Counted from the stretch's first letter, positions 3,725 through 37,200 are shown. The stretch: 64,000 nt of DNA from Actinotalea solisilvae (GCF_016464425.1 NZ_JADDKQ010000001.1:186001-250000); one strand, 5' to 3'. Numbers and translations: made by a program. Notes: generated from the letters alone by a model not told the origin.

Positions 3725-3742
3725 GGTGAAGAGTTGCTGAAG
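3725..3742 (-). promoter_or_regulatory. CopR-type box before SHOCT-DUF2933-lnt
   Basis: On the plus strand TGAAG at 3727 and TGAAG at 3738 repeat with an 11-base period; read toward the minus-strand operon they are CTTCA-N6-CTTCA. It is one member of a family of such repeats scattered between 3.7 and 37.2 kb. Assignment to the CopR regulator at 10314 is inferred. Confidence 0.6.
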
Positions 3743-3864
3743 GTCGATGGCGGGGCGCAACGCAAGGCGACGACCCCGTCGGCGCTGCGACGTCACCGAT
3801 TCGTGACAATCGGACGGACGCCTGCCTAGGATGTGCGCGCTCGGGGTCGTCCCGGGCGTCCCGA

Positions 3865-4040
3865 GGCGGACCGCCGAGTCCTGCCACCGCCGAGGGGACA
3901 GCTCGAACCGCCGGCAGGAGCGGGGGAACCACATCGCGGCCGCGACCCGTCGTCGGCCTTGGGGTGAAGCCGGAGACCATCCGGCCGGGCGCACTCCCGC
4001 CCGAACCCGACAGCTCACCTCGTAGGCGACCGGAGAGGCT
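3865..4040 (+). ncRNA. Cyclic di-AMP riboswitch (ydaO-yuaA class)
   Basis: The leader of the NlpC/P60 gene contains the conserved blocks of this class in order: GCGGGGGAACCACAT (3918-3934), TTGGGGTGAAGCC (3959-3971), CCCGAACCCGACAGCTCACC (3999-4019) and TCGTAGGCG just before the ribosome site. The 5' edge is taken at GGCGGACCGCCGAG near 3865; both ends are approximate. These RNAs commonly control actinobacterial cell-wall hydrolases, and ligand binding usually turns expression off. Here it ends about 5 bases before the ATG, so it could act on termination or initiation. Confidence 0.88.
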
Positions 4041-4044
4041 GTCC

Positions 4045-4815
4045 ATGCCCGCGATTTCTGCTTCGGCGCGCCACCGCGCCCCCGGCGCCCCCCACACCGT
4101 CCTGCACGACGTCGCCGCGAGCACCACGCGGATGGTCGAGAGCTCAGGGCGCCGGGCAACGGTCGCCGTCGGCGCATCGGGTCTTGTCGCCTCCATGCTG
4201 GCGGGGCCAGCCAGTGCCGCGCCGAGCGACCACCCGAACCTTCCTGCCGTCGACACGGCCCCGCTCACCGCCCCGGCCGAGCAGGCCCTGGCTGTCTCGG
4301 CGCCTGTGTCCGTGCCGCTCGATGCGGCGTGGACGTTCGACGTCCCGGCCATCACCGTGGTCGCCGACCCACCACCGCCTCCGCCCGCGCCCGAGCCCGA
4401 GCCCGACCCGGCACCGTCGCGCGGGGCGGAGCGGGAGGCGGCGCCAGAGACGCCGATCGGTGCGCCGGCGCCTGCCAGCGCGAACGGCAGCGCGATCGTC
4501 GAGATCGCTTCACGCTACGTCGGCGTGCCGTACCTGTGGGGCGGCACGACGCCGGACGGCTTCGACTGCTCCGGCTTCACGTCGTACGTCTACGCGGAGG
4601 TCGGCATCACGCTTCCCCGTACGTCGGCCGATCAGCGCTACGCCGGCACGGTCGTGCCGTTCGACCAGGCGCAGCCTGGTGACCTCATCTGGTCCCCCGG
4701 GCACATCTCGATCTACGCCGGCGGCAACCTACAGGTGGACGCCCCGGTTCCGGGCAAGACGATCCAGATCCGCGAGATCTGGCAGTCCGATCCGGTGTTC
4801 ATCCGCGTGGGCTGA
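4045..4815 (+). CDS. Secreted NlpC/P60 peptidoglycan endopeptidase
   Basis: 256 residues from ATG 4045, which follows GGAGAGG. There is an export segment (about 40-62), a Pro/Ala/Glu-rich linker and a C-terminal NlpC/P60 domain (about 150-256). The nucleophile lies in PDGFDCSGF, the catalytic His in SPGHISIYAG, and the domain opens with SRYVGVPYLWGG. Such enzymes cut stem-peptide bonds in the wall. Expression is expected to follow c-di-AMP through the riboswitch directly upstream. There is no CopR-type box before this gene, so it may be the host-type gene beside the copper genes. Confidence 0.9.
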   Translation: MPAISASARHRAPGAPHTVLHDVAASTTRMVESSGRRATVAVGASGLVASMLAGPASAAPSDHPNLPAVDTAPLTAPAEQALAVSAPVSVPLDAAWTFDVPAITVVADPPPPPPAPEPEPDPAPSRGAEREAAPETPIGAPAPASANGSAIVEIASRYVGVPYLWGGTTPDGFDCSGFTSYVYAEVGITLPRTSADQRYAGTVVPFDQAQPGDLIWSPGHISIYAGGNLQVDAPVPGKTIQIREIWQSDPVFIRVG

Positions 4816-4848
4816 GCCCTTCGCGCCCCCGCGCCCGTGTGGGCCAGG

Positions 4849-4865
4849 CTTCATGGGATCTTCAT
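4849..4865 (+). promoter_or_regulatory. CopR-type box before DUF305 lipoprotein
   Basis: CTTCAT at 4849 and CTTCAT at 4860 are 11 bases apart, reading toward the DUF305 gene at 4975. A third CTTCAT occurs at 4888, out of phase. Among the best matches in the window. Confidence 0.65.
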
Positions 4866-4974
4866 CGCTCGGGAGCGCCCGGGCGCGCTTCATGACGCAG
4901 GCTTGATGCACGCCACCTTCCGGCGCAATTCGAGCCGTCGCCGCCACGGCGACCGAAGCGAGGAGCTGTACTTG

Positions 4975-5601
4975 ATGACCCCTACCCGCCGATCCGCCGT
5001 CGCCGCGGGCGCCGCGCTGCTACTAGCCGCGTCGCTCACCGCGTGCGCAAGCGCCACCGAGGAGAGCGGGAGCCCGGCCACCGCCTCGTCAGCGTCCCCG
5101 ACCGCTGACGAGCCTGCTGCGGAAGAGGTCCACAACGACGCCGACACCGAGTTCGCGCAGATGATGATCGTGCATCACGAGGGCGCGATCGAGATGGCTG
5201 AGCTTGCGGTCGAGCGCGCAGGCAGCGAGGAGGTCCGGGCGCTCGGTGAGCGCATCGCGGCAGCGCAGGGCCCCGAGATCGAGACGATGACGTCGTGGCT
5301 CGAGGCGTGGGGCGAGGAGACCCCCGACGGGATGGAGATGGGCGGCATGGACCATGGGGACATGCAGATGGACGGCATGGACCAGGAGATGGTCATGGAA
5401 CAGCTCTCCGGGCTGTCCGGCGCCGACTTCGATCGCCGCTTCCTCGAGCTCATGATCGAGCACCACCGTGGTGCGATCGAGATGTCGGAGCAGCACCACG
5501 AAGCCGGCGAGAACCCCGAAGCGATCCAGCTGTCGGCCGAGATCATCGACGCTCAGACGCTCGAGATCACGGAGATGACGAACCTCCTCGCGGCGCTGTA
5601 G
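4975..5601 (+). CDS. DUF305 lipoprotein, copy 1
   Basis: 208 residues with a lipoprotein signal ending LLAASLTAC (Cys about 24). Two DUF305 repeats follow: MMIVHHEGAIEMAE and LMIEHHRGAIEMSE, a ferritin-like four-helix layout with paired histidines. Between them is a Met/His/Asp-rich loop, GMEMGGMDHGDMQMDGMD, a strong candidate for copper or silver binding outside the cell. ATG 4975 follows GAGGAG. A CopR-type box lies upstream and a hairpin terminator follows. Lipidation would need Lgt, encoded by the next gene. Family function is not established; metal binding is inferred. Confidence 0.88.
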   Translation: MTPTRRSAVAAGAALLLAASLTACASATEESGSPATASSASPTADEPAAEEVHNDADTEFAQMMIVHHEGAIEMAELAVERAGSEEVRALGERIAAAQGPEIETMTSWLEAWGEETPDGMEMGGMDHGDMQMDGMDQEMVMEQLSGLSGADFDRRFLELMIEHHRGAIEMSEQHHEAGENPEAIQLSAEIIDAQTLEITEMTNLLAAL

Positions 5602-5673: not shown

Positions 5674-5712
5674 CTTCAGCGATCCTTGATCGGCGCAGCC
5701 GCAAACCTTCAT
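5674..5712 (+). promoter_or_regulatory. CopR-type box before lgt
   Basis: CTTCAG at 5674 and CTTGAT at 5685 are 11 bases apart; CTTCAT at 5707 is another 22 bases on, so three half-sites share one 11-base phase. They read toward lgt at 5783. Confidence 0.55.
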
Positions 5713-5782: not shown

Positions 5783-6619
5783 GTGGGACGCCTCATGCAA
5801 CCTGTCCTCTTCACGATCCTCGGGCTCGACGTCCAGACGTACGGCCTGAGCAAAGCGCTCGCCGCTCTGACGGGCGCCTACCTGCTCGGGAGAGCGTTCG
5901 AGCGGCACGGGCTCGCCAAAGAGGTCGCGCACACCCTGGTGCTCTGGGCGACCGTCGTGGGATTCGTGGCCGCGAAGGCCTACTTCCTTGCTGAGCAGAT
6001 GCCCGACGTGACCGTCCATGACCTCGGCGGTATGGGCTTCACCTGGTACGGCGGCCTGATCGGGGGCGTCGTGGCGGCAGCGGTCGTCGTCCACCGCCAT
6101 CGACTTGACCTCGGGGACGTCGCGGGCCTCGCCGCCGTCCCGCTCGCGGTGGCGTACGGCATCGGCCGGCTCGGCTGCTTTGCCTCGGGCGACGGAACCT
6201 ACGGCGCGCCCACGGACCTGCCGTGGGGTGTCGCCTTCCCGAATGGCGTCGTGGCGACCGACGTACCGGTGCATCCGACGCCTCTCTACGAGGCCCTGGC
6301 CGCTGCGCTCATCGCGTTCGTGCTCTGGCGGCTCGGTCAGCGGGTGCGGCTTCCCGTCGTCTTCGCTGCCTACCTCGTGCTGAGCGGCGTCGCTCGGCTG
6401 CTCGTCGAGTTCCTGAGGACCAACGAGGTCGCACTCCTCGGGCTGACGCAGGCTCAGCTGTGGGCGCTGCTGAGCATCGCCGTCGGAGCGGTGGCTGCAG
6501 TCCGCTTCTCGCGTCGCAGTGTCGAGAGGGACATCGCCGGTGAGGCGCAGCGCGAACGGGCGGACGATGGACCCACAGGCGCACCTGCAGAACCGTCGAT
6601 GGCGTCGAGCGCCCCCTGA
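5783..6619 (+). CDS. lgt: Prolipoprotein diacylglyceryl transferase
   Basis: Lgt transfers diacylglycerol from phosphatidylglycerol to the lipobox cysteine. The 278-residue protein has about seven spans and the family signatures: MGFTWYGGLIGG, the central YGIGRLGCFASGDGTYG (normally GRxGNFxNGExxG), HPTPLYE and VEFLRTNEV. Asn-to-Cys in GRLGC and a shortened extracytoplasmic region suggest a specialised version. GTG 5783 or ATG 5795 may start it. The last base of its stop is the first base of the next ATG, so it is coupled to the ligase-like gene. A copper-regulated second Lgt, serving the lipoproteins around it, is inferred. Confidence 0.85.
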   Translation: MGRLMQPVLFTILGLDVQTYGLSKALAALTGAYLLGRAFERHGLAKEVAHTLVLWATVVGFVAAKAYFLAEQMPDVTVHDLGGMGFTWYGGLIGGVVAAAVVVHRHRLDLGDVAGLAAVPLAVAYGIGRLGCFASGDGTYGAPTDLPWGVAFPNGVVATDVPVHPTPLYEALAAALIAFVLWRLGQRVRLPVVFAAYLVLSGVARLLVEFLRTNEVALLGLTQAQLWALLSIAVGAVAAVRFSRRSVERDIAGEAQRERADDGPTGAPAEPSMASSAP

Positions 6620-7968
6620 TGGACGTCGACCTGCTCGCCCGCGTCCTGGTTGGTCGCCGAGCGCTCGCGCGCAGGGACATGTGGACGCGCGCTGAGCTCG
6701 TCGCACACCAGCAGCGGCGCCTCGATGCTGTTCGCCGAGCGGCGGCGGAGCGGTCGCCCTTCTACCGTCGCCAGCACGCCGGCCTTGACGCTGCACTACT
6801 CCAGGAGCTGCCCTCGGTCACCAAGGAGACCGTGATGGCGCAGTTCGACGCGGTCCTGACCACCCGCGACATCAACCTCGCGGTGATCGAGCAGCGGCTT
6901 CACGACCTGACCGCATCCGACGGCGACCCTGGTCAGCCGCTCGAGCGGCGCTGGTGGGTCGCCGCGACAGCAGGGACGACCGGGCGGCGAGGCGTGTTCG
7001 TGTGGGACCGCGCGGAGTGGGCGACCGTTCTCGTGTCCTACGCACGCGCAACCCAGTGGGCGGGTGTCCGTGCAGGGCTCTTGACTCCACTTCGGATGGC
7101 GGTGGTCAGTTCGCGCGTGCCCACGCACCAGAGCGCCGTCGTGGGCGCCTCCCTGCGGTCACGTACCGTGCCGACCCTTCGCCTCGACGCACGGGCGCCG
7201 ATCGCTGAGATGGTCACTGCGCTCAACGAGTTCCAGCCACGGGTGCTTGTGGGGTACCCGTCGGTGCTGCGGCCGCTCGCCGGTGCGCAGCTTGTCGGGT
7301 CCTTGCGCATCGCACCTGAGGCGGTCATGTCGGCGTCGGAGGTCCTCTCCCCCGTCGCCGCGCTCGAGATGGAGCGGGCGTGGTCGTGCGCACCGAACGA
7401 CGTCTACGCCGCGACGGAGACCGCAGGTATCTCCTCGCAGTGCAGACTCGGGCGCAGGCACGTCTACGAGGACCTCGTGATCGTGGAGCCGGTGGACGGC
7501 GACGGTGCACCGGTGTCCGACGGGACCCCCGGTGATCGCCTTCTGGTGACCGTGCTCTTCGCCCGCACGCTGCCGCTGATCAGATACGAGCTGAGCGATC
7601 GTGTGGCCCTCGATCCCGATCCGTGCCCGTGCGGGCTGCCGTTCCGCACCCTGGCCTTGGTCGAAGGTCGCCGGGAGGATGTCCTGACCGTCCAGGGCGG
7701 GACGTCACGCGTCCTCCTTCACCCGAACGTCTTCCATGCCGTGCTCGACACGCCGGAGGTGGTGCAGTGGCAGGTGGAGCAGCGGGACGGCGGGCTCCAC
7801 GTCAGGCTCGTGGCCGCCTCGGGTGGGTTGGACCTCATCGCGCTGCGCAGCCAGCTGGCGACCGCCCTCGCGTCTGCCGGCGCGCGGGTCGAGATCGGCG
7901 TCGAGCTCGTCGCGAGGATTCCCCGCACTGCGCTGGGGAAGTCACCGTTGATCCGCCGTCAGGACTGA
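6619..7968 (+). CDS. PaaK-like adenylate-forming ligase
   Basis: 449 residues of the phenylacetate-CoA ligase/CapK branch of the ANL superfamily, which activates a carboxylic acid as acyl-AMP. Visible signatures: the phosphate loop TAGTTGRRG (about 116-124), YAATETAG, the Cys cluster DPCPCGLPF that can bind zinc, and the C-terminal lysine in TALGKSPLI. The substrate cannot be read. It overlaps lgt by one base and ends at a strong terminator, so the pair forms one transcript behind a CopR-type box. Why a lipoprotein lipidation gene travels with an acid:CoA or acyl-AMP enzyme is open; supply of an acyl group is a guess. Confidence 0.75.
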   Translation: MDVDLLARVLVGRRALARRDMWTRAELVAHQQRRLDAVRRAAAERSPFYRRQHAGLDAALLQELPSVTKETVMAQFDAVLTTRDINLAVIEQRLHDLTASDGDPGQPLERRWWVAATAGTTGRRGVFVWDRAEWATVLVSYARATQWAGVRAGLLTPLRMAVVSSRVPTHQSAVVGASLRSRTVPTLRLDARAPIAEMVTALNEFQPRVLVGYPSVLRPLAGAQLVGSLRIAPEAVMSASEVLSPVAALEMERAWSCAPNDVYAATETAGISSQCRLGRRHVYEDLVIVEPVDGDGAPVSDGTPGDRLLVTVLFARTLPLIRYELSDRVALDPDPCPCGLPFRTLALVEGRREDVLTVQGGTSRVLLHPNVFHAVLDTPEVVQWQVEQRDGGLHVRLVAASGGLDLIALRSQLATALASAGARVEIGVELVARIPRTALGKSPLIRRQD

Positions 7969-8228: not shown

Positions 8229-8855
8229 CTACAGGCGGCTCTGCACCTCCCGGAGGAGGTCCTGCGGTGCGAGCCACATGGACGGGTAGTTGCCGTACCA
8301 CTGCTGCACGCCCTCGGCGTCGATGAGGATGAATCCGTGGCCGGGCAGCCCTTCGTGCATGCCCGTCCCCAACGTGCCGTACTGCTCGGAGACCGTGCCG
8401 TCGTCGAGCAGGAAGTCGGAGGTGACGCCGAGCCGGGCGCGCTCGGCGTTGATCTGCTCGGCGGTGTTCATCACGATGGGCAGGACGGTGATCCCGGCCT
8501 CGGCGAAGGCTGGGTCCTTCTCGATCTCGGCCATCTGCATGAGGCATGAGTCGCAGCCGGCGCCCTCGTTGAAGTACAGGACGACGGGCGAGCCCTGCAG
8601 CTCGGAGAGGGTCACCGTCTGGCCGTCGGACGTCGGCAGCGTGAAGTCTGGCGCCACCCGGGCGTCGGACGACACGACCGGCCTGGACGCGAGGAGCGCC
8701 GCCACGACGAGCGTCACGATGATGACGAGCGCGACACCCCACGCCGCCAGGCTGATGCGGTGCCGACGCTTCGCCGCGTCGACCTGTCCCTGGCGGAGCT
8801 CGTCGAGCATCTGCTGACGCTCGGCCTGGCGGCGGACTGCTGTTCCGGAGGTCAT
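8229..8855 (-). CDS. Membrane-anchored peroxiredoxin/TlpA-type thiol protein
   Basis: 208 residues: a charged N-terminus, one span (about 36-56), then an extracytoplasmic AhpC/TSA-like domain starting APDFTLPTSDGQTVTLSEL. The thiol motif is GAGCDSC, a CxxC at the position of TlpA/ResA active sites, preceded by VVLYFNE. The C-terminal part (GHGFILIDAEGVQQWYG) fits the fold. Its ATG overlaps the ccdA-like stop (ATGA), so reductant probably comes from that protein. Likely role: reducing disulfides or metal-oxidised thiols outside the membrane; inferred. Confidence 0.75.
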   Translation of the reverse strand: MTSGTAVRRQAERQQMLDELRQGQVDAAKRRHRISLAAWGVALVIIVTLVVAALLASRPVVSSDARVAPDFTLPTSDGQTVTLSELQGSPVVLYFNEGAGCDSCLMQMAEIEKDPAFAEAGITVLPIVMNTAEQINAERARLGVTSDFLLDDGTVSEQYGTLGTGMHEGLPGHGFILIDAEGVQQWYGNYPSMWLAPQDLLREVQSRL

Positions 8856-9862
8856 CGGACCACCTCTTCCTCAGTGGCGCTGCTGTGGCAGCTGGGGGCT
8901 TCGACTGATCCGGCGGGTCCGCCGGTGAGCGAGGGGTGGCCCTCGACGGGCAGGACACCGGCCTCGGGAGACACGGGCGTCGCACCATGAGCGGAGCCCC
9001 GCGGGCGGCGGCCGGCGAGCGTCGCCCACACGAAGACGGCCGCGAGAGCGAGCAGGGCCATGCCGAGGACCGGCTCGGGGATCGGGCTCACCCAGGCCTG
9101 CACGGCGAGGAAGACGTCGGTCAGCGTGCTCGCGGCAGCGTCCTGAGCCGCTGTCCCGCCCGTCATGTCCGTGTCGCCGGCGAGCGCGATCACGAAGACG
9201 CCCATCACCACGAAGCCGACGGCGACCGCGATGTTCAGGCTGTTCGTCGCGATGACTCGGCCTGCGACGCGTACGCGCACGGGACGGGCGCGGAAGAGCT
9301 TCCGCTCGCCGAGCCGTGCCCGGTCCCAGACCAGCGCCATGACGAACAGCGGGAAGACCATGCCGAAGACGTACGCCAGGCCGAGGGCCAGGCCCCCGGC
9401 GGCCGACCCGGACAGGACCGAGAGCGTCATGACGCCGGCGAGCACGGGGGCGCAGCAGCTCGAGGCGACGCCGGAGAAGACGCCGAGGGAGAAGAAGCTC
9501 GCTGTGTCGCCTCGCGAGGTGTCCGGCGCACGCAGGAAGCTCGGCAGCGACCACATGGTCCCGGAGAACGAGAGAGCGGCCAGGGCGAACATGAGCACCC
9601 CGCCGGCGATGTAGAGGGGCACGTGGTAGCGCGCGATCGCGCCCGCCAGCAGGCTCATGCCGAGCGTGATCGGGACCAGCACGACCGCGAGACCGGCGGC
9701 GAAGATGAACGTCAGTGGAAGGAGCCGCCAGCGGCGGTTCTTCACCGCGCCGGCGAGGTAGCTGGGGGCCAGGAAGACGATGCAGCAGGGTGCGAAGAGC
9801 GCGACGCCACCGGCGAAGAAGGCCGCGAGGATGCTTCCCGTGGTGAGCAGCTCGGCGCCCAT
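8852..9862 (-). CDS. CcdA/DsbD-type thiol-reductant transporter, copy 1
   Basis: About 336 residues with six or more spans. The two CcdA-type cysteine sites are FAPCCIVFLAPSY in the first span and VASSCCAPVLAGV later, each with adjacent Cys and Pro, unlike the single Cys of standard CcdA (compare LSPCVLP at 46907). CcdA proteins pass electrons from cytosolic thioredoxin to thiol proteins outside. It overlaps its neighbours at both ends (ATGA), so the thioredoxin-like, CcdA-like and TlpA-like genes form one relay. The doubled cysteines could let it bind a soft metal. Confidence 0.75.
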   Translation of the reverse strand: MGAELLTTGSILAAFFAGGVALFAPCCIVFLAPSYLAGAVKNRRWRLLPLTFIFAAGLAVVLVPITLGMSLLAGAIARYHVPLYIAGGVLMFALAALSFSGTMWSLPSFLRAPDTSRGDTASFFSLGVFSGVASSCCAPVLAGVMTLSVLSGSAAGGLALGLAYVFGMVFPLFVMALVWDRARLGERKLFRARPVRVRVAGRVIATNSLNIAVAVGFVVMGVFVIALAGDTDMTGGTAAQDAAASTLTDVFLAVQAWVSPIPEPVLGMALLALAAVFVWATLAGRRPRGSAHGATPVSPEAGVLPVEGHPSLTGGPAGSVEAPSCHSSATEEEVVR

Positions 9863-10170
9863 CAGGCGCTCACGACGCGGAGTGCGGGGCGTGCAGCGGC
9901 ACGAGCGGCGAGGAGCTTCGCGAGCTTCCTGCGCGGGAGGCGCCCCGAGCTGAAGTACTCCCCCTCGACGAGCACCAGCGGGTTCATCGCGGGCCGGTGC
10001 CGCATCACCAGCTGCGCTCCTTCGGCGGACTCGAGCTCGACGACACGGACCGCCAGCGGCCATGTCTCGCCGAGCTCGGCCAACGTGCGGGTCGCGTCGT
10101 CGCAGAAGTGGCATGCCGGTGCGTGCACCACGGTCACGTGGACCGCAGCGGGGACGGGCGTCGGGGTCAT
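9862..10170 (-). CDS. Small thioredoxin/glutaredoxin-like protein
   Basis: 102 residues. A CxxC active site, VVHAPACHFCDDATRTL, lies near residue 20 after a short beta strand, with the cis-Pro region at AMNPLVLVEGEYFSSGRL. No signal peptide, so it is cytosolic and could feed electrons to the CcdA-like protein it overlaps. First gene of a four-gene minus-strand operon that diverges from copR. Confidence 0.7.
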   Translation of the reverse strand: MTPTPVPAAVHVTVVHAPACHFCDDATRTLAELGETWPLAVRVVELESAEGAQLVMRHRPAMNPLVLVEGEYFSSGRLPRRKLAKLLAARAAARPALRVVSA

Positions 10171-10256
10171 CGGGCTCTCCGGGAGGTAGGGTGGTCGATC
10201 TCCACCAGCGTCCCGGGTGGATGCTGTGCTGCGGTCGTCGTTCGATCAACGTTCGG

Positions 10257-10273
10257 TGAAGACCTCGACGAAC
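10257..10273. promoter_or_regulatory. Weak CopR-type half-site pair in the copR divergent region
   Basis: TGAAG at 10257 is followed 11 bases later by ACGAA, a degenerate second half-site. It lies between the thioredoxin-like operon and copR and may serve autoregulation. Weaker than the other boxes. Confidence 0.3.
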
Positions 10274-10313: not shown

Positions 10314-11030
10314 ATGAGGACCATGGTTTCCCCGACGACACGCCGCGCCCTGGTCATCGACGACGAGCAGGCCCTCGCCTCGTTGGTCGGGGGCTATCTC
10401 GAGCGAGAGGGCTTTGAGGTCCACCTCGCGCACGACGGTCCCGACGGCCTGGAGCAGGCGCGATCCGTGGATCCCGATCTCGTCGTGCTCGACCTCGGCC
10501 TTCCCCAACTCGATGGGATCGAGGTGTGCCGTCAGCTCCGGACGTTCTCCGACTGCTACGTCGTCATGCTGACGGCGCGGTCGGAGGAGATCGACACGCT
10601 CATCGGCCTGTCCGTCGGTGCCGACGACTACATGACCAAGCCTTTCAGCCCCCGGGAGCTGGTGGCCAGGATCGCAACCCTGTTCCGCCGCCCTCGCCGC
10701 GCCGAGAGCTCCAGCGGGTCCGCCGAGCCGCTGTGCGTGGGACCCCTCACGCTCGACCTCGAGTCGCGTGAGGTGCGGATCGACGAGGCGTTGGTGCCGC
10801 TGACGAGGACGGAGTTCGACGTGCTCAGCACCCTGGCCCGGTACCCCAACCGGGTCTTCAGCCGTCGGGCGCTCATCGAGGAGGTCTGGGGACAGAACTG
10901 GGTCGGTGACGAGCACCTCGTCGACGTCCATGTGCTGCACGTCCGGCAGAAGCTCGGCGACTCAGCGGCTGAGCAGCGTTTCGTGCGGACCGTCCGCGGG
11001 GTGGGCTACCGCGTCGGGTCCGGCGAGTGA
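10314..11030 (+). CDS. copR: OmpR/PhoB-family copper response regulator
   Basis: 238 residues. The receiver domain shows the acidic pair in VIDDEQ (Asp16-17), the phospho-acceptor in VVLDLGLP (about Asp60) and Lys in YMTKPFSP (about 109). The C-terminal winged helix contains LTRTEFDVLSTLARYP and ends VRTVRGVGYRVGSGE. ATG 10314 or 10323 is the start. The sensor kinase overlaps it and copZ-copA follow, as in copper-responsive CopRS/CusRS loci. OmpR-type regulators bind tandem repeats one helical turn apart, matching the 11-base TGAAG boxes found across module 1. The gene symbol reflects that context. Confidence 0.85.
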   Translation: MRTMVSPTTRRALVIDDEQALASLVGGYLEREGFEVHLAHDGPDGLEQARSVDPDLVVLDLGLPQLDGIEVCRQLRTFSDCYVVMLTARSEEIDTLIGLSVGADDYMTKPFSPRELVARIATLFRRPRRAESSSGSAEPLCVGPLTLDLESREVRIDEALVPLTRTEFDVLSTLARYPNRVFSRRALIEEVWGQNWVGDEHLVDVHVLHVRQKLGDSAAEQRFVRTVRGVGYRVGSGE

Positions 11031-29750: not shown

Positions 29751-29814
29751 GCCCGACCCGGCCAGTCGTGCGCTCCCCGTACCTGCGTCCCGAGCGCCAC
29801 CACGCCTCCGAGCG

Positions 29815-31221
29815 TCACGAGGGCTGCTCGTCCAGTGCGACCGCGAGCATGTCTTCCCGCGGGACGACCTTCATCCGCTCGCGGCCGCGCAGCTCGCCCA
29901 ACGACCGCTCGTAGGCGTCCAGCAGCATCCATCCGGACCACTCGACGTAGCGGACGCCGCGCTCCATGAGCAGCGCCCGCACGGCAGCCTCGCTCCGCTC
30001 GGGCGCTCGAGGCAGCTCGCCGACGTCGGAGACCAGGTGCTTGATCGTCTCTGCGGCGTCAGACTTCGTGTGCCCGATGAGGCCCACCGGGCCGCGCTTG
30101 ATCCAGCCGGTCGTGTAGACCCCGGCGATCGGTGCTCCCGCGCGCGTCGTCACCCTCCCCTCGTCGTTGGGGATCACGCCGGCGACCTCGTCGAACGGCA
30201 GGCCGGGCAGCGGCGAGCCGAAGTAGCCGACCGCCCGGTAGACGGCCTCGACCGGCCAGTCGTGCAGCTGGCCGGTCCCCGCGACGGACCCGTCGCCGGT
30301 GAGCACGGTGCGCTCGGTCCGCAGGCCCTCGACCCGGTCCTCGCCGAGCACCGCGACGGGCTTGTGCAGGAAGTGCAGGTGGATGCGCCGGCTCGCGGTC
30401 AGCTCCTCCGGCTCCTTGAGCGTCCAGTCGGTGAGGGTCTTGACGACCTGCTTGGTCTGGTTGGACGAGTGGATCGCCGCCATCGACCCCTCGTCGAAGT
30501 CGAAGTCCTCGGGGTAGACGATGACGTCGACGTCGCGCACGTGGCCGAGCTCGCGCAGCTCCAGGGGGCTGAACTTCACCTGCGCCGGCCCGCGTCGCGC
30601 GAAGACGTGCACGTCGGTCACCGGGCTCGCCAGGAGGCCCTGGTGGACGTTGTCCGGGATCTCGGTGGGCAGCAGGTCCTGGGGGTGCTTGGCCAGGATG
30701 CGGGCGACGTCGAGCGCGACGTTGCCCGCCCCGATCACGGCGACGGTCCGGGCCTCGAGCGGCCACGTCCGCGGCACGTCGGGGTGCCCGTCGTACCAGG
30801 ACACGAAGTCGGCCGCCCCGAACGAGCCCGCCAGGTCGATGCCGGGGATCGGCAGCTCGGCGTCGCGGATCGCGCCGGTCGAGAAGATCACGGCGTCGTA
30901 GAACCGCCGCAGGTCGTCCAGGTCCAGGTCCGTGCCGTAGTCGACGTTGCTCAGCAGCCGGATGTCGCCGCGGTCGAGGATCTTGTGCAGCGCCACGATG
31001 ATCTGCTTGATCCGCGGGTGGTCCGGCGCGACCCCGTAGCGGACGAGGCCGAACGGCGCGGGCAGACGCTCGAACAGGTCGATCGAGACCTCGAGGCCGG
31101 CCTTGGACAGGATGTCGGCGGCGTAGATGCCGGCCGGTCCCGCGCCGACGACGGCCACGCGAGCGGGGCCCACGTGCTCGTCGACGGGCGGCTCCGGAGC
31201 GGCGCACTGGGTGGGTCTCAT
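29815..31221 (-). CDS. fprA: FprA-type NADPH-ferredoxin reductase
   Basis: 468 residues of the adrenodoxin reductase family. FAD site VVGAGPAGIYAADIL near residue 25, YGVAPDHPRIKQI, NADP site AVIGAGNVALDVARIL, and the C-terminal TTGWIKRGPVGLIGHTKSDA. It moves electrons from NADPH to ferredoxin-type Fe-S proteins in the cytosol. The gene directly upstream encodes a 4Fe-4S membrane protein with 54 bases between, so that protein is the obvious acceptor. Its start RPTQC... is ATG 31221. Confidence 0.9.
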   Translation of the reverse strand: MRPTQCAAPEPPVDEHVGPARVAVVGAGPAGIYAADILSKAGLEVSIDLFERLPAPFGLVRYGVAPDHPRIKQIIVALHKILDRGDIRLLSNVDYGTDLDLDDLRRFYDAVIFSTGAIRDAELPIPGIDLAGSFGAADFVSWYDGHPDVPRTWPLEARTVAVIGAGNVALDVARILAKHPQDLLPTEIPDNVHQGLLASPVTDVHVFARRGPAQVKFSPLELRELGHVRDVDVIVYPEDFDFDEGSMAAIHSSNQTKQVVKTLTDWTLKEPEELTASRRIHLHFLHKPVAVLGEDRVEGLRTERTVLTGDGSVAGTGQLHDWPVEAVYRAVGYFGSPLPGLPFDEVAGVIPNDEGRVTTRAGAPIAGVYTTGWIKRGPVGLIGHTKSDAAETIKHLVSDVGELPRAPERSEAAVRALLMERGVRYVEWSGWMLLDAYERSLGELRGRERMKVVPREDMLAVALDEQPS

Positions 31222-31275
31222 CGAGGCGTCTCCAACAGGTTGCGGTCGGTCATGGTGCGCGTCGGGAACTGGACC

Positions 31276-32700
31276 TCACATGCGGTGGGCCATCGGGAGC
31301 AGGAACATCCAGACGTTCACGGCGCCGAGCAGGGCGATGATGACGACGAAGGGCATGACGGTCGCGCGGCGACGGGCGGCGGTCTGGTAGCGGCGGTGGG
31401 CGATCCGGCGTGCGGTGTAGATGGACCCGGCGATGCCCAGGGCGAGCAGTGCGAACTGCAGGATCTGGATCGTGCCGGCGCTGACGAGGGCGGGGTCGCC
31501 GGTCGCGGTGGAGCCGAACAGGGCGGCGGTCGTGTAGTAGACCGAGCCGCCCTCGGCGAGCAGGTGGAACAGGTTGTGCGCCAGGTGGCCGGCGACGTCG
31601 AGCGGGATGAGCGCGTACCCGAACCGCGCGAAGTTCATCTTCGTCGTCTCCAGGTTCCTGCCGGCCGCCACCTTGGAGGCGACCGCGAGGAGCCCCACCG
31701 GGACAGTCACCGCGACCGCGAACGCGACCGTGAAGATGACCGGGTAGCTGGTGATCCCCGTCGTCGCGGCGATCCAGGCCAGGACGTCCTGCCAGACCTC
31801 GAGCATGGTGATGTTCTGGATGAGGACGATGCCCATGATCGCCATCGCGAGGTAGGACTGCTCGAGCTTCGGCTTGGTGATGAACCACAGCTCGGAGGTC
31901 GGCTTGCGGAGCCGGACCTGGATGGCGTCGTTGGGGCAGCTCTTGATGCAGTTGGCGCACAGGTTGCAGTTCGCCGAGTCCTCCATCGTGCGGGGGAACG
32001 TGAACAGAGGGCAGCCGGCGACCTTCTCGTTGCCGTTGTAGCAGACGGCCTTGGCCTTGCAGGTCTTGCAGATCGCCGAATCCGCGCGGAGCTCGACCAT
32101 GCCGACACGGGCGTAGTTGCCCGACAGCCCCCCGAGGAAGCACAGGTACCGGCAGAAGGTGCGGCGCTGGAACAGCGCGCCGGACGCGATCACCGCCGTG
32201 GTGAGGATCAGCAGGAGCACGCCCGAGCCCCAGGGCGACTCGACCACGCCCCAGACGTGGTCGGCCCACGTGATGAAGAGGAAGGACGCGTCGATGATCC
32301 AGATGCCGTAGTTCTTGAGGAAGTTGGGCACCGGCCGGTTGACGCCGACCCACTTCTGCGCGAAGTCCGAGATGGCACCGAACGGGCACACGGCGCACCA
32401 GAACCGGCCGAGCAGCACGAACACGATCGGGATCACCGGCCACCACAGCACCCACATGAGTGCGGTGCCGGCGTTCTCGTGGGCGACGTCGGGACCCACC
32501 AGCAGCTGGAAGGCGACCAGTCCGAACACGGCCGCGACGGGGATCTGCAGGATCTTGGGGTACCAGCCGCTGCGCAGCGTGCGCGCCACCCACGGGATGG
32601 TCATGAGGTTGCGCCCGACGGGCGGGGGCGTGGTGTCCGGGCCGGCGAGGTCCGGGTCCGGCACGGGCGCCGGGGCGTCCGTCAGGGTGGGGGCGGTCAT
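31276..32700 (-). CDS. NosR/NapH/CcoG-type polyferredoxin membrane protein
   Basis: 474 residues, six or more spans. Two CxxxC sites at membrane edges (FWCAVCPFG and CRYLCFLGG), as in NosR/NapH, then two cytosolic Fe-S clusters: CKTCKAKAVC with a later GCP, and CNLCANCIKSCP. Members of this group pass electrons across the membrane; CcoG of cytochrome oxidase assembly has been shown to reduce Cu(II). No nos or nap genes are present. With FprA downstream and a copper-binding repeat protein upstream, a cupric reductase chain is the best inference. Confidence 0.8.
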   Translation of the reverse strand: MTAPTLTDAPAPVPDPDLAGPDTTPPPVGRNLMTIPWVARTLRSGWYPKILQIPVAAVFGLVAFQLLVGPDVAHENAGTALMWVLWWPVIPIVFVLLGRFWCAVCPFGAISDFAQKWVGVNRPVPNFLKNYGIWIIDASFLFITWADHVWGVVESPWGSGVLLLILTTAVIASGALFQRRTFCRYLCFLGGLSGNYARVGMVELRADSAICKTCKAKAVCYNGNEKVAGCPLFTFPRTMEDSANCNLCANCIKSCPNDAIQVRLRKPTSELWFITKPKLEQSYLAMAIMGIVLIQNITMLEVWQDVLAWIAATTGITSYPVIFTVAFAVAVTVPVGLLAVASKVAAGRNLETTKMNFARFGYALIPLDVAGHLAHNLFHLLAEGGSVYYTTAALFGSTATGDPALVSAGTIQILQFALLALGIAGSIYTARRIAHRRYQTAARRRATVMPFVVIIALLGAVNVWMFLLPMAHRM

Positions 32701-32720
32701 GGTGGTCTCCTCGCGGACGA

Positions 32721-33371
32721 TCAGGCGGTCGGGGTGGCGGCCGGCGCGCCAGCCGCCCTGGGGCGATGGCGCGGCTTGTCGCCGTCGCGCCGGCGGAGCC
32801 AGGCAGCGCCGATGAGGACGGCGGCGTTGACGCCGGCGAAGCTTCCGAGCACCGCGGCGCGCGGGCGTGGGGACGCGGCCTCGGTCTCGCCGTGGCTCTC
32901 GCCGCCCGAGTCGTGCTCGGCGCTGCCCTCAGAAGGGTCCGCGGTGCCCTCGGCGTGGTCGGTCGAGCCCTCGTGCTCAGCCATGTCCTCGTCGGTCATG
33001 TCCTCGTGCTCGGTCGTGCCGCCGTGCTCGGCCATGTCCCCGTCGGCCATGTCCCCGTCGGTCATGTCCTCGTGCTCGGTCATGTCCTCGTGCTCGGCCA
33101 TGTCCTCGTCGGTCATGTCCTCGTGCTCGGCCATGTCCTCGTCGGTCATGCCCTCGTGCTCGGCCATGCCCTCCTGAGGCTCGACCGGCTCGGTGTGCGA
33201 CGAAGAACCGTCCATCTCCTGGCTCTCGTGCGCTCCGTCGCCAGGGTCGGTCACCACCCGGCGGCCGACGCCCGGCGTCAGCGCGACGCCGAGGTCTGCC
33301 GCGGGTGCGTACCCGACCGCAGGCAGGGCAAGCAGTACTGCGACGGGCAGCGTGACGAGCATCGGTTGCAT
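32721..33371 (-). CDS. Secreted Met/His/Asp/Glu repeat protein, likely copper-binding
   Basis: 216 residues. Signal peptide (about 1-25), an acidic stretch, then about 75 residues of tandem repeats with the unit MAEHEDMTDED (M-x2-H-E-x-M-T-D-x-D), broken by shorter forms such as MADGDMAEHGG; then a C-terminal span (about 175-195) and an Arg-rich tail, so the repeats are tethered outside. Met and His every 3-4 residues suit Cu(I)/Cu(II) or Ag, with carboxylates for Cu(II). First gene of the operon with the Fe-S protein and fprA, behind CopR-type boxes. No known family recognised. Confidence 0.75.
   Translation of the reverse strand: MQPMLVTLPVAVLLALPAVGYAPAADLGVALTPGVGRRVVTDPGDGAHESQEMDGSSSHTEPVEPQEGMAEHEGMTDEDMAEHEDMTDEDMAEHEDMTEHEDMTDGDMADGDMAEHGGTTEHEDMTDEDMAEHEGSTDHAEGTADPSEGSAEHDSGGESHGETEAASPRPRAAVLGSFAGVNAAVLIGAAWLRRRDGDKPRHRPRAAGAPAATPTA
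32970..33182. repeat. Tandem coding repeat (33-base unit and parts)
   Basis: Plus strand shows repeats of GTCATGTCCTCGTGCTCGG followed by CCATGTCCTC, a 33-base unit coding on the minus strand for MAEHEDMTDED. Units are nearly identical in DNA, so the array is young or kept even by recombination and its length probably varies between strains. Confidence 0.8.
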
Positions 33372-33454: not shown

Positions 33455-33517
33455 CTCCATCGAACCTTCATCGACCTGCGGTCGTGCCGGGGGCGGCCAC
33501 CTTCATCGAACCTTCAT
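33455..33517 (+). promoter_or_regulatory. Double CopR-type box in a divergent promoter region
   Basis: CTCCAT at 33455 with CTTCAT at 33466, and CTTCAT at 33501 with CTTCAT at 33512, each pair 11 bases apart (CCTTCATCGAACCTTCATGG in the second). The densest cluster in the window, between the repeat-protein operon (minus) and the copper-storage gene (plus). Confidence 0.7.
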
Positions 33518-33629: not shown

Positions 33630-34031
33630 ATGAAGACCACGGAGATGCTCGAGACCTACCCCGCAACCATCAACCTCGACCGGCAGCTATTCGCCCGAGT
33701 CATCGAGACGCTCGTCGCCTGCTCCCAGGCGTGCACCGCGTGCGCGGACGCGTGCCTGAGCGAGGAGATGGTCGCGGACCTGCGCAAGTGCATCCGGTCC
33801 AACCTCGACTGCGCCGACAGCTGCGCGACCACCGCCCGGATCCTGTCCCGGCACACCGGCTACGACGCCACCATCACGCGCGCCCACCTCGAGGCCTGCA
33901 TCGCGGCGTGCCGGGCCTGTGGTGACGAGTGCGAGCAGCACGCGGGCATGCACGAGCACTGCCGCGTCTGCGCCGAGGTGTGCCGGGACTGCGAGGCCGC
34001 CTGCGCCGAGCTCCTCGCGGCCATCCGCTGA
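33630..34031 (+). CDS. Four-helix-bundle copper storage protein (Csp-like)
   Basis: 133 residues with 16 cysteines on predicted helices in Cx3C, Cx2C and Cx6-type spacings: VACSQACTACADAC, NLDCADSC, EACIAACRACGDEC, CRVCAEVCRDCEAAC. This is the DUF326/Csp pattern, in which Cys line the core of a four-helix bundle and store many Cu(I). No signal peptide, so it is the cytosolic type. ATG 33630 follows CAGGAGG. Next to the strongest CopR-type boxes. Confidence 0.9.
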   Translation: MKTTEMLETYPATINLDRQLFARVIETLVACSQACTACADACLSEEMVADLRKCIRSNLDCADSCATTARILSRHTGYDATITRAHLEACIAACRACGDECEQHAGMHEHCRVCAEVCRDCEAACAELLAAIR

Positions 34032-34128
34032 GCGCGGTCACGCTGGTGCCGGCGGGCAGCCCGCCTGCAGCACCGCGTCAACCCGTCCAGAGCTCGAGCA
34101 GGTACCAGCGAGACGAGGAGGACCGACG

Positions 34129-34770
34129 ATGTCCACGCAGCGCGAGCACGACCACGAGTCGATGAAGGGACACCACGACGGTGAGGGCGCCCGCCGCGAC
34201 GGCCGGCACCATGGCGGTGAGCAGGGCCATCAGATGAAGGGCATGTACCTGCGCTTCGCCGCCATGATCCTCACCGCCATGGTGGTCATGTACTTCGTGA
34301 TGTTCGTCGGCTCGTGGGAGCTCGACCACGTCCGGTTCAGCCAGAGCCGCGTCTTCATGGCGGTCACCATGGGCGGCACCATGGGGCTGATCATGCTCGC
34401 CTGGATGCTGAACATGTACAAGAACGCCAAGGCTAACATCGCCGTCGTCGCCGTCAGCGTGCTGCTCCTCGCCGGCGGCGTCGTGCTGGACCGCAGCCAG
34501 GTCACGGTCGGTGACACCGCGTTCATGCGCGCGATGATCCCCCACCACTCCCTGGCGATCACACGCTCCGAGCGGGCACAGATCGACGACGTCCGGGTGT
34601 GCGAGCTCGCCGTCGAGATCATCAAGGCCCAGCAGCGGGAGATCGCCGAGATGGACTGGCTCATCCAGGACATCGAGCGCAACGGCATCGCCACGTCGCC
34701 GGCCGACGCCGACTCGCGTGCGGTCCCGGACTTCGAGGGCACCGCGCTCCGCTCGTGCCCGACCTCCTGA
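34129..34770 (+). CDS. Membrane DUF305 protein, copy 2
   Basis: 213 residues. His-rich cytosolic start (HDHESMKGHHDGEGARRDG, then RHHGG and GHQMKGM), three spans (about 38-58, 72-92, 97-115) and a C-terminal DUF305 domain with FMRAMIPHHSLAITRSE and QQREIAEMDWLI. Unlike the copy at 4975 it is held by spans and not a lipid. ATG 34129 follows GAGGAGGACC. About 100 bases after the copper-storage gene and likely co-expressed. Metal binding inferred. Confidence 0.85.
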   Translation: MSTQREHDHESMKGHHDGEGARRDGRHHGGEQGHQMKGMYLRFAAMILTAMVVMYFVMFVGSWELDHVRFSQSRVFMAVTMGGTMGLIMLAWMLNMYKNAKANIAVVAVSVLLLAGGVVLDRSQVTVGDTAFMRAMIPHHSLAITRSERAQIDDVRVCELAVEIIKAQQREIAEMDWLIQDIERNGIATSPADADSRAVPDFEGTALRSCPTS

Positions 34771-34839
34771 CCTGACCCACCGGGCGTCGAGGCGCTGCAC
34801 ACAGGGAATATCCGCCATGCGCCCACGGTTCGACAGTCA

Positions 34840-34858
34840 CATACCCCCTGGGGGTATG
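34840..34858. promoter_or_regulatory. CsoR operator before copB
   Basis: CATACCCC-CTG-GGGGTATG is a perfect inverted repeat, 28 bases before the copB ATG. Stronger symmetry than the site at 25024. Confidence 0.8.
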
Positions 34859-34886
34859 GTCGGATGACGGGTGGAGGAGAAGAGCC

Positions 34887-37172
34887 ATGAGCAACGCGCA
34901 CCAGGGCCACGGCGTGCACGGCGATCGGCAGGGTCAGGCGGGTCAGCGGCACGAGCCGTCCGTCGACGAGACGGATCCGCCGGCTCACGACCGCCACGGC
35001 GGGCACGACGCCGGCCAGATGGAGCACGAGGGCCACCACACGCCTGCGCATGTGGACGGGCACGATGCCGAGCACCGGCCCTCAGCCGGCGACCACGGCG
35101 GGCACGTGGGCGCGGACGGCGGGCACGGGGCGCACGGTGGGGGTCACGGTGGCGGTCACGGTGACCACGTCGCGCTGTTCCGGCGTCTGTTCTGGATCAA
35201 CCTGGCGCTGGCCGCGCCGACGGTCCTGCTCAGCGCGATGTTCGCCGACCTGCTCGGCTACACCCTTCCCGACGTCCCAGGGCTCACCTGGGTCGCGCCG
35301 ATCCTCGGCACGGTCATCTACCTGTGGGGCGGACGGCCGTTCCTCACCGGAGCGATCGCCGAGCTCCGGGCGCGCAAGCCCGGGATGATGCTGCTCATCG
35401 GCATGGCGATCACCGTGGCTTTCGTCGCCTCGTGGGGCGCGACCCTCGGGGTGCTCTCCCACGAGCTGGACTTCTGGTGGGAGCTCGCCCTGCTGGTCGT
35501 GATCATGCTGCTGGGCCACTGGCTGGAGATGCGGTCCCTGGCGCAGACCTCCTCCGCTCTGGACTCCCTCGCGGCGCTGCTGCCGGACGAGGCGGAGAAG
35601 GTCGAGGGCGACTCCGTCGTCCTGGTCCCGCCGTCCTCGCTCGTCCTGGGTGACGTCGTCGTCGTGCGCCCGGGTGGCCGGGTCCCGGCCGACGGGCAGG
35701 TCGTCGAGGGCGTCGCCGACGTCGACGAGTCGATGATCACCGGTGAGTCGCGGCCCGCGCGCCGGAAGGTCGGCGACCAGGTCGTCGCGGGGACCGTCTC
35801 GACCGACAGCGCCCTGCGGGTGAGGGTTGACGCCGTCGGTGAGTCGACCGTGCTGGCCGGGATCCAGCGCCTCGTCGCCGAGGCGCAGTCGTCGACGACG
35901 CGTGCGCAGCTGCTGGCCGACCGGGCCGCCGGGTGGCTCTTCTGGTTCGCCGTGGTCGCGGCAGTCGTCACGGTCGCGGTCTGGAGCGCCGTCGGCACAC
36001 CGGACTTCGCCGTCGTCCGGGCCATCACGGTCCTCGTCATCGCCTGCCCGCACGCCCTCGGGCTCGCCATCCCGCTCGTGGTGTCGATCTCCACCGAACG
36101 CGCTGCCCGCGGCGGCGTCCTGGTCAAGGACCGCGCCGCCCTGGAGCGGATGCGCGTGGTCGACACCGTCCTGTTCGACAAGACCGGGACGCTCACCAAG
36201 GGCGAGCCAGCCGTGCACGACGTCGCCACTACCGGGATGGGCGACGACGAGCTCCTTGCGCTCGCGGCCGCCGCGGAGGCCGACAGCGAGCACCCGCTGG
36301 CGCGTGCCATCACCGCTGCAGCACACAACCGGGGGCTCACCGTCCCCCGTGCCCAGGACTTCCGGGCCTCGACCGCGGTTGGCGTCTCCGCCACCGTGGA
36401 CGGACGCCGCGTCGCGGTCGGCGGCCCGAACCTCCTGGCGGAGCACGGGCTCGCTCCCCTGCCGGCGACCCAGCCCTGGTCCGACCGCGGGCAGATCGTG
36501 CTGCACGTGGTGGTCGACGGCCAGGTGGCCGGAGCGCTCGGGCTCGCCGACGAGGTGCGTCAGGAGTCCCGCGAGGCGGTCGACGCCCTGCACGCGCTCG
36601 GCATCCGCGTCGTGATGATCACCGGCGACGCCGAGCCGGTCGCCAGGGCCGTGGGGGCCGAGCTCGGCATCGACCAGGTGTTCGCGGGCGTCCGCCCGGA
36701 GGACAAGAGCAGCACAGTGGCTTCCCTGCAGGGGGCCGGCCGCATCGTGGCGATGGTGGGTGACGGAGTCAACGACGCACCCGCGCTCGCGCAGGCCGAC
36801 GTCGGCGTGGCCATCGGCGCCGGCACGGACGTGGCCATCGCCTCGGCCGGGGTCATCCTGGCCTCCGACGATCCTCGCTCCGTCCTATCCGTCATCCAGC
36901 TGTCCCGTGAGGGCTACCGGAAGATGAAGCAGAACCTCTGGTGGGCCGCTGGCTACAACATCGCCGCCGTGCCGCTCGCCGCCGGGGCCCTTGCGCCGGT
37001 CGGGTTCGTCCTGCCGATGGAGATCGGCGCGATCCTCATGTCCCTGTCCACCGTGGTGGTGGCCGCGAACGCCCAGCTCCTACGGCGTCTCGACCTGAGC
37101 CCGCAGGCCTCGACGGCCGCAGCACGCGGGGCTCGACGCGCCGAACCACGCACGGCAGTGCCGGCTGCCTGA
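34887..37172 (+). CDS. copB: CopB-type P1B-3 ATPase with His-rich N-terminus
   Basis: 761 residues, ATG 34887 after GAGGAG. The first about 95 residues hold some 30 histidines with Gly/Asp (GHVGADGGHGAHGGGHGGGH). The core has the CPH ion motif VIACPHALGLAIPL (about 388), FDKTGTLTKGEP (about 430), SEHPLARAI and MVGDGVNDAPALA. CPH marks the P1B-3 group, linked to Cu(II)/Cu(I) and Ag export. The N-terminus replaces HMA domains. Controlled from the CsoR palindrome upstream. Confidence 0.92.
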   Translation: MSNAHQGHGVHGDRQGQAGQRHEPSVDETDPPAHDRHGGHDAGQMEHEGHHTPAHVDGHDAEHRPSAGDHGGHVGADGGHGAHGGGHGGGHGDHVALFRRLFWINLALAAPTVLLSAMFADLLGYTLPDVPGLTWVAPILGTVIYLWGGRPFLTGAIAELRARKPGMMLLIGMAITVAFVASWGATLGVLSHELDFWWELALLVVIMLLGHWLEMRSLAQTSSALDSLAALLPDEAEKVEGDSVVLVPPSSLVLGDVVVVRPGGRVPADGQVVEGVADVDESMITGESRPARRKVGDQVVAGTVSTDSALRVRVDAVGESTVLAGIQRLVAEAQSSTTRAQLLADRAAGWLFWFAVVAAVVTVAVWSAVGTPDFAVVRAITVLVIACPHALGLAIPLVVSISTERAARGGVLVKDRAALERMRVVDTVLFDKTGTLTKGEPAVHDVATTGMGDDELLALAAAAEADSEHPLARAITAAAHNRGLTVPRAQDFRASTAVGVSATVDGRRVAVGGPNLLAEHGLAPLPATQPWSDRGQIVLHVVVDGQVAGALGLADEVRQESREAVDALHALGIRVVMITGDAEPVARAVGAELGIDQVFAGVRPEDKSSTVASLQGAGRIVAMVGDGVNDAPALAQADVGVAIGAGTDVAIASAGVILASDDPRSVLSVIQLSREGYRKMKQNLWWAAGYNIAAVPLAAGALAPVGFVLPMEIGAILMSLSTVVVAANAQLLRRLDLSPQASTAAARGARRAEPRTAVPAA

Positions 37173-37183
37173 GCGGACGGCCC

Positions 37184-37200
37184 CTTCATCGAATCTCTAT
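37184..37200 (+). promoter_or_regulatory. CopR-type box before cueP
   Basis: CTTCAT at 37184 and CTCTAT at 37195, 11 bases apart, 12 bases after the copB stop and 57 before the cueP ATG. Confidence 0.6.

Follow-up and report, generated by a model that had tools for sequence, protein, structure and literature searches.

The subject of this study is a 64-kb window of the Actinotalea solisilvae genome (G000:C12:186001-250000; genome of 4.3 Mb in 41 contigs, with a listed completeness of 99.99% and contamination of 8.17%) and the tandem TGAAG/CTTCA repeats that it contains. Fifteen repeats, here called boxes, lie before genes in one island at 3,727-37,199. Their presence is confirmed, and comparison of sequences supports the interpretation that they form a CopR regulon. 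We consider it very probable that the boxes are operators of the OmpR-type regulator CopR (10314..11030, + strand) and that they run a single response, with CopR as the predicted binding protein, copper as the presumed signal and activation as the presumed outcome. In this best reading of the sequence, the CopRS copper response would be enlarged from the one known site of Corynebacterium glutamicum to about 16 predicted transcription units.

To locate the boxes, a weight matrix was built from 72 training sites, which came from 10 further genomes of the genus. The matrix consensus is CGATGAAGGTTCGATGAAG, with TGAAG half-sites 11 bp apart. The scan generated 15 sites of at least 16 bits, all within the island, with none in the rest of the window. 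A further 320 kb of the genome contained 1 such site (C12:15865, 18.3 bits), and 40 Markov-resampled windows contained a mean of 0.175 sites of at least 14 bits. An initial annotation of this DNA had listed thirteen repeats and called a further one, at 10257, weak. All of the listed repeats are present, and the case for them is stronger than was claimed. The list was incomplete, since it lacked 15954 (20.3 bits), and the supposedly weak repeat is a site at 10246-10261 of 22.5 bits, above the matrix threshold. The 12-base period given for 26106 is correct, while the repeat placed at 25092 has its best register at 25088. Weaker places of 13.0-14.4 bits were found at 34152, 15965, 1029 and 27620.

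Exact TGAAG-N6-TGAAG occurs 10 times in the genome, 6 times in the window, and the reversed control pattern does not occur. Two of the ten (on C6 and C41) are one stretch present twice, with 15.6 kb shared at 100%; this repeat scores 20.1 bits at C6:5195, where the surrounding DNA has several open frames. When one mismatch at most is allowed, GATGAAGN6TGAAG matches 18 places: the window has 8, a second island (contig C31) has 4 and the remaining DNA has 6, of which 2 are the C6/C41 pair. With up to two mismatches there are 98 places vs 54 for the control, so beyond one mismatch the pattern alone is mostly noise. Counting mismatch-free TGAAG pairs, the window has 6 with spacing 11 and 2 with spacing 12; each of the other spacings from 5 to 25 has 0-1. 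A chance origin was rejected by the spacing preference, the own-genome background and the shuffles. Equal density elsewhere was rejected as far as the genome pattern counts and the 320-kb matrix background reach.

With curated gene starts 15/15 boxes are intergenic, as the initial annotation had stated for its thirteen repeats, in a stretch that is 13.1% intergenic. The longest possible starts leave 13/15 intergenic, with 4849 and 26106 overlapping 5' ends. Coding constraint was rejected as the source of the repeats for the curated starts. The matrix scan found no site of at least 12 bits in 37.3-64 kb, though further DUF305, DUF3105, Lnt and M23 genes are present there. A second metal region at 43975-61121, free of CopR boxes, serves as an internal negative control. 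It carries Nramp, DsbD-like, a second DUF3105, another DUF305, ResB, a cytochrome c assembly protein, a further Lnt, a cation-efflux protein, M23 and a MerR regulator.

The boxes keep a preferred distance to -10-like elements, which differs with orientation. In the CTTCA direction [CGT]AGnnT peaks 33-34 bp beyond the box (49/205 boxes; the mean is 1.4 per offset), and a smaller peak follows at 45 (10/205). A third half-site, CTT[CG]A, is found at 17, two turns on, in 22/205 boxes. For TAnnnT in the TGAAG direction the maximum is at offsets 48-50 (9, 8 and 6; 23/211 boxes) vs a mean of 0.4 per offset. Used alone as the -10 form, TAnnnT shows a weak signal when boxes are read in the CTTCA direction; the looser form that gives the 33/34 peak was chosen after the alignments had been viewed.

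Boxes of the window were scored with the looser form [CGT]AnnnT. In the CTTCA direction six have an element at 33-34. Box 3727..3742 (+, 26.8 bits; GAGTCT, 3692-3687) faces the SHOCT-like ORF, DUF2933 and Lnt genes. Box 4849..4864 (-, 28.4 bits; CAGGCT, 4898-4903) precedes DUF305a, 5674..5689 (-, 24.2 bits; GACGCT, 5723-5728) precedes Lgt1, and 26379..26394 (-, 20.2 bits; CAACCT, 26429-26434) precedes VanY. Box 19482..19497 (+, 21.5 bits; GATGCT on the minus side) lies between a beta-propeller gene (-) and Lgt2 (+). The sixth, 10246..10261 (+; GACGCT, 10212-10207), faces the glutaredoxin-like operon. Two boxes have the element at 45, namely 33501..33516 (-, 34.9 bits; TAGCGT, 33562-33567) before DUF326 and 37184..37199 (-, 23.1 bits; GAGGAT, 37245-37250) before CueP. 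In the TGAAG direction 5/15 boxes have an element at exactly 48. Besides 10246 these are 12174..12189 (+, 28.2 bits; TAGCGT, 12238-12243) upstream of the HMA protein, 15954..15969 (+; CACCAT, 16018-16023) before the M23 peptidase, 17390..17405 (+, 29.1 bits; TACGAT, 17454-17459) before DUF3105 and 27416..27431 (+, 30.0 bits; TACGGT, 27480-27485) before EtfB-EtfA. Box 33455..33470 (-, 29.7 bits; GAGCGT), directed towards the probable operon at 33371, has its element at 49.

Box 10246 lies in the divergent spacer upstream of copR, and its first half-site is imperfect (TCAAC). It has -10-like elements on both sides (CACAAT, 10310-10315, faces copR), an arrangement in keeping with one box serving two divergent units, which has been reported for C. 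glutamicum; the different geometry of the two orientations would allow the box to serve two promoters. Within 10314-10323 the copR element overlaps the first ATG, and a leaderless start of copR translation at ATG 10323 is likely.

Recurrence was scored as a box within 450 bp upstream of the orthologue in relatives, with the second island of this genome excluded. Matches starting beyond query residue 45 (except for seven named genes), starts within 60 bp of a locus end, and L031, which is the same locus as L125, were also excluded. Loci were chosen partly for containing repeats, so the fractions are not population estimates. The SHOCT-like ORF has a box in 27/29 copies, 65-92 bp upstream, and through it DUF2933 has one in 12/12, mostly at 324-348 bp. 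The glutaredoxin-like gene has one in 19/23 copies and, through this ORF, the CcdA-like gene in 18/21 (351-397 bp). Boxes were also found for DUF326 in 13/15 copies, CopR in 35/53 (43-114 bp from box to start), Lgt1 in 10/14 (62-122 bp upstream), CueP in 4/4, NlpC in 4/7, pump 1 in 11/21, Lgt2 in 3/5 (overlapping the extrapolated start), Lnt in 3/9 and CsoR in 4/18. The distance from box to orthologue is nearly constant for the recurring targets. Operon-internal genes of the same loci served as the control and had no box of their own: TlpA 0/20, CopS 0/48, PaaK-like 0/6, Fer4 0/2, FAD 0/1 and EtfA 0/1.

Conservation was ranked over the 16-mers of the 160 bp upstream (145 positions, one sequence per genome; DUF305a, with n=2, was left out). 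The box is the best-conserved 16-mer (rank 1/145) before DUF326, the SHOCT-like ORF, Lgt1 and the glutaredoxin-like ORF (13-20 sequences each, 20 for the SHOCT-like ORF). Gene order around the boxes varies between relatives, and box and gene stay together. The members that recur are SHOCT-like/DUF2933/Lnt, DUF305, Lgt(-PaaK), DUF326, the glutaredoxin-like/TlpA operon, copRS, pumps 1 and 2, and CueP. Of the genes that the initial annotation proposed for one response, recurrence thus supports lnt, lgt, the PaaK-like gene, SHOCT-like/DUF2933 and DUF305 as predicted members; DUF3105 is weakly supported, and one relative each bears on EtfBA, VanY and FliL.

Boxes are coupled to CopR. The regulator and kinase pair at 10314-12157 was identified as described, with Response_reg and Trans_reg_C domains in CopR and HAMP, HisKA and HATPase_c domains in CopS (11027..12157, +); the two reading frames overlap by 4 bp. 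CopS has a short extracytoplasmic loop, FHDHM...HAEEAF, between two membrane helices judged by eye. Aligned with CopS of plasmid pLEW279b, FHxHM and HAE are common to both, while Rhodococcus and Mycolicibacterium have FREHL and Kocuria has FYHEL. Eighty loci fetched by CopR similarity alone were all scanned, a box being a site of at least 18 bits. Boxes were present in 12/13 loci with CopR of at least 55% identity and in 6/67 below 55%, equivalent to 30 sites in 0.24 Mb vs 7 in 1.17 Mb (Fisher P 3.7e-9, uncorrected for relatedness or base composition). Among 19 genomes of the genus, 11 have a CopR homologue of 70-100% identity, with 10, 15, 9, 9, 8, 9, 7, 4, 1, 10 and 8 exact repeats (median 9). 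Five genomes with no CopR match at 1e-75 have 0, 0, 1, 0 and 1, and the reversed-pattern control gives 0-2 per genome.

Coupling extends to plasmids, where 7/8 regions with CopR relatives have sites of at least 16 bits, including pLEW279b, Rhodococcus, Gordonia, Mycolicibacterium and Cellulomonas. The Cryobacterium region has 0 such sites and the two sites of Kocuria are weak. Window CopR is 53.7% identical over 88% of its length to the pLEW279b protein, which here stands in for that of C. glutamicum. At copR of pLEW279b the matrix finds a box whose 16-bp core is the one published for C. glutamicum; the pLEW279b stretch has this core only, with no exact match to the full 20-bp box. As a side observation, the Cellulomonas sp. 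C5510 plasmid p110066 (L151) carries an annotated version of the island with 7 boxes of at least 16 bits. Its genes include lgt, lnt, copRS, glutaredoxin, CcdA, redoxin, DUF305, M15, M23-type and C40 peptidases, multicopper oxidase and P-ATPases.

A number of observations weigh against assigning all of these repeats to CopR. The training sites of the matrix share descent with the window sites, so that the latter are held out and not independent, and the training loci were chosen partly for having repeats. The -10 patterns were picked after looking, and related loci were counted separately. Two boxes have no -10-like element at the usual offsets: 25088..25103 (+, 24.7 bits), upstream of pump 2, has none at 33, 34, 45 or 48, and neither has the CopR-like box 26106..26122 (+, 18.0 bits, 12-bp period). 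Three genomes with only 56-61% CopR homologues (G151, G066 and G107) have 6, 3 and 4 exact repeats, mostly with other spacers. G130, whose CopR is 77% identical, has just one exact repeat, and no repeats were found at L039 (CopR 63%) or on the Cryobacterium plasmid (57.5%). Recurrence is limited for DUF305a (20/37), pump 2 (13/43 ATPase matches assigned), DUF305b (3/13), pump 3 (1/9) and M23 (2/6). It is also limited for DUF3105 (2/7, those in the other orientation). The box ranks 26/145 before CueP (n=4) and 4/145 before pump 2 (n=5).

The main complication is a second regulator, about 50% identical to CopR. Four genomes (G066, G079, G099 and G107) encode response regulators that have 48-51% identity to CopR and are located about 130-520 bp away from an exact repeat; such regulators could therefore read similar boxes. 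The spacers of these repeats partly have another ending, CCG. The boxes might accordingly be read by, or shared with, a different OmpR-type regulator, either such a paralogue or an envelope-stress regulator, and copper might not be the main signal. A 52% homologue near a box and DUF326 in L137 points the same way, and an envelope signal would suit the genes for cell-wall and lipoprotein functions. The steep fall in box frequency below 55% identity, the frequent box before copR itself and the wealth of copper genes in the island argue for CopR instead, as does the reported binding of this core by C. glutamicum CopR (PMC3140484). We regard control by another regulator as improbable.

A second question is how far CopR control would extend. 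CopR may command only a core, made up of copRS, the pumps, DUF326, DUF305, CueP, the SHOCT-like gene, the thiol-redox operon and Lgt, with the boxes of EtfBA, FliL, VanY, DUF3105 and M23 being decoys or recent chance gains. Relatives offer thin support for those five, since the box was found for EtfB in 1/1 copy, for VanY in 1/1 and for FliL in 0/1, besides the low fractions of DUF3105 and M23. The FliL score of 0/1 arises from a start placed too far upstream, and a 34-bit box adjoins the FliL gene in L114. EtfBA and VanY are thus suggested by one relative each and FliL by one unscored case, and DUF3105 and M23 are weakly supported candidates for the regulon. The same five boxes score 18-30 bits, against a background of one site of at least 16 bits per 320 kb. 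Their -10-like element lies at exactly 48 for EtfB, DUF3105 and M23 and at 34 for VanY. Restriction to the core seems rather unlikely to us, though less so than control by another regulator, and we retain the wider CopR regulon.

The same assembly contains a second, shorter paralogous copper island (G000:C31:43718-54195, L011+L012) with 5 matrix boxes, whose longer DNA pieces are 81-92% identical to the window island. Given the listed contamination, the C31 contig might belong to another strain. This similarity, together with related gene sets on plasmids, would be expected if the repeats had hitchhiked with the copying and transfer of the island and were mostly without function. Hitchhiking fits poorly with the box being better conserved than its flanks in four gene families (rank 1/145), with box and gene staying together among relatives whose gene order differs, and with the preferred offsets kept by the -10-like elements. 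We consider it highly improbable and continue with the boxes as CopR operators.

Tandem operators of the Pho-box type are direct repeats of about 11 bp that are read by OmpR-type dimers (OmpR/PhoB), with a half-site before the -10. The present boxes differ in the half-site and in occurring in both orientations with different spacings. The closest known system is CopRS of C. glutamicum (cg3281-cg3289; Schelder et al. 2011, PMC3140484). The site TGAAGATTTgaTGAAGATTT was tested there by mobility shift, in agreement with the TGAAG tandem repeat that the initial annotation had named as the corynebacterial CopR target. C. glutamicum CopR is reported to be copper-dependent and to activate both units flanking its site. 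One genomic binding site was concluded for this regulon, with 9 target genes. The same paper gives 97% nucleotide similarity between the cop region of pLEW279b and its C. glutamicum counterpart. Both systems have an OmpR-type CopR with a linked kinase, whose loop is about 30 residues, a TGAAG direct repeat with an 11-bp period, one box for a divergent pair, and a P-ATPase, a heavy-metal-binding protein and TlpA nearby. They differ in number, with one site there and 15 in one island plus 5 in a second here. Added here are lgt, lnt, cell-wall peptidases, EtfBA, FliL-like, DUF326, DUF3105 and CueP. The multicopper oxidase targeted in C. glutamicum (CopO) had no Pfam match among the window proteins scanned, which covered part of the ORFs.

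Copper-linked lipoprotein processing has a precedent, since a second lgt and lit2 are reported to be copper-induced in Listeria. Such lgt2-lit2 operons are reported on mobile elements of Listeria and Enterococcus (PMC8275575). Both cases have an extra lipoprotein-processing set that includes a second lgt, co-expressed with copper resistance there and predicted to be so here. Here Lnt takes the place of Lit, the hosts are actinobacteria, and control is predicted to be of the CopR two-component type. Synechocystis CopMRS is a copper two-component system CopRS beside CopM, in a paper that uses the term DUF305 ten times (PMC4335983); it differs from the present system in having RND pumps. Titles and abstract openings of the open-licence literature, in lists viewed in part, contained no multi-site CopR regulon of this kind, nor did we meet Lnt together with cell-wall and ETF genes in a copper regulon. 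Systems of this kind are known; within the reach of these searches, the novelty lies in the size and contents of the present one.

The gene content of the island can be divided into copper, envelope and electron-carrier sides. Family matches of SHOCT, PaaK-like, Csp1, glutaredoxin and NapH are below Pfam or NCBIfam cut-offs. On the copper side, besides copRS, are three copper-type P-ATPases at 12617..14920 (+), 21986..24988 (-, start 24988 or 24766) and 34887..37172 (+, no box of its own in the window), and CsoR at 21636..21947 (-). An HMA-domain copper-chaperone-like protein is at 12303..12515 (+), DUF305a at 4903..5601 (+, true start possibly a few codons downstream), DUF326 (Csp1-like) with DUF305b at 33630..34770 (+), and CueP at 37239..37805 (+, start possibly slightly downstream). 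DUF2933 (3153..3401, -) is probably co-transcribed with the SHOCT-like membrane ORF of 82 aa (3398..3646, -), the most recurrent box target. The thiol-redox operon would begin with the glutaredoxin-like gene (9862..10170, -) and continue with a membrane protein (8852..9862, -), matching in position a gene annotated CcdA on the Cellulomonas plasmid, and a TlpA-like redoxin (8229..8855, -). DUF3105 is at 17511..18197 (+), the beta-propeller gene at 18246-19400 or 19427 (-), and the FliL-domain protein, in a 171-aa model, at 25513..26028 (-).

The envelope side comprises two lgt, one lnt, NlpC/P60, M23, VanY and sortase genes. The genome has 4 Lgt matches, 3 Lnt matches and 2 pairs of ETF genes, which makes those of the island additional copies. 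Lnt, the apolipoprotein N-acyltransferase (1511..3121, -), is one of three LNT_N matches in the genome. Lgt1, an extra prolipoprotein diacylglyceryl transferase (5783..6619, +), is followed by the PaaK-like AMP-binding protein (6619..7968, +), whose start overlaps the lgt1 stop; Lgt2 is at 20050..21165 (+). The NlpC/P60 peptidase (4045..4815, +) is a possible second target of box 3727, at 303 bp from it. The M23 peptidase is at 16030..17364 (+) and the VanY-type D,D-carboxypeptidase at 26584..27384 (+). On the electron-carrier side, EtfB-EtfA (27504..29284, +) is the second ETF pair of the genome. A probable operon at 29343..33371 (-) has a secreted protein (32721-33371), a NapH-like Fe-S protein, a NAD(P)/FAD oxidoreductase (flavoprotein) and a further ORF (29343-29750). 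The secreted protein is rich in Met, His, Asp and Glu, carries repeats of the MAEHEDMTDEDM type and has no family match; behind two tandem boxes, it is a candidate copper buffer. Adjoining the island end, 38195-41349 encodes an integrase-core protein and a pyridine nucleotide-disulphide oxidoreductase with a dimerisation domain, which is presumably mercuric-reductase-like.

A second layer of control may be provided by CsoR. We take the CsoR operator form to be a GC-rich palindrome, TACCCnnnnnGGGTA. Two palindromes, TACCCCCAGTGGGTA at 25026..25040, between box 25088 and the pump 2-csoR operon, and TACCCCCTGGGGGTA at 34842..34856, before P-ATPase 3, were the only window matches of the patterns tried. 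Both lie before copper pumps, and csoR is linked. The most conserved 16-mer upstream of pump 2 is about at the first palindrome (n=5). Before pump 2, a CsoR-type operator would add control by intracellular copper.

In the mechanism that we propose, CopS would sense excess copper outside the membrane and phosphorylate CopR. Phosphorylated CopR would bind side by side on the two TGAAG half-sites, 11 bp or one helical turn apart, and activate transcription. The box would act in both orientations with different geometry, the -10 lying at 33-34 or 45 bp in the CTTCA direction and at 48 bp in the TGAAG direction. The predicted transcription units of the 36-kb island, about 16, would respond together. 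They would supply three copper pumps, binding or storage-like proteins (DUF326, DUF305, CueP and the Met/His-rich protein) and thiol-redox proteins, along with the extra Lgt and Lnt, cell-wall enzymes and an ETF/Fe-S/flavoprotein set. A bolder proposal, which we put forward tentatively, is that CopR is an orientation-reading activator of a whole-envelope copper programme, in which pumps and storage are joined by a private Lgt/Lnt lipoprotein line, cell-wall remodelling and an ETF electron pathway. If this were true, copper stress would rebuild the cell surface with its own lipoproteins.

The results suggest that a corynebacterial regulator with one site may become a regulon recognisable from sequence in the chromosomes and plasmids of actinobacteria. 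They offer a precise promoter rule, with offsets of 33/34 or 45 in one direction and 48 in the other. Copper is predicted as the condition for the DUF305, DUF2933, DUF3105, SHOCT-like, PaaK-like and FliL-like families, and likewise for the extra copies of Lgt, Lnt and ETF.

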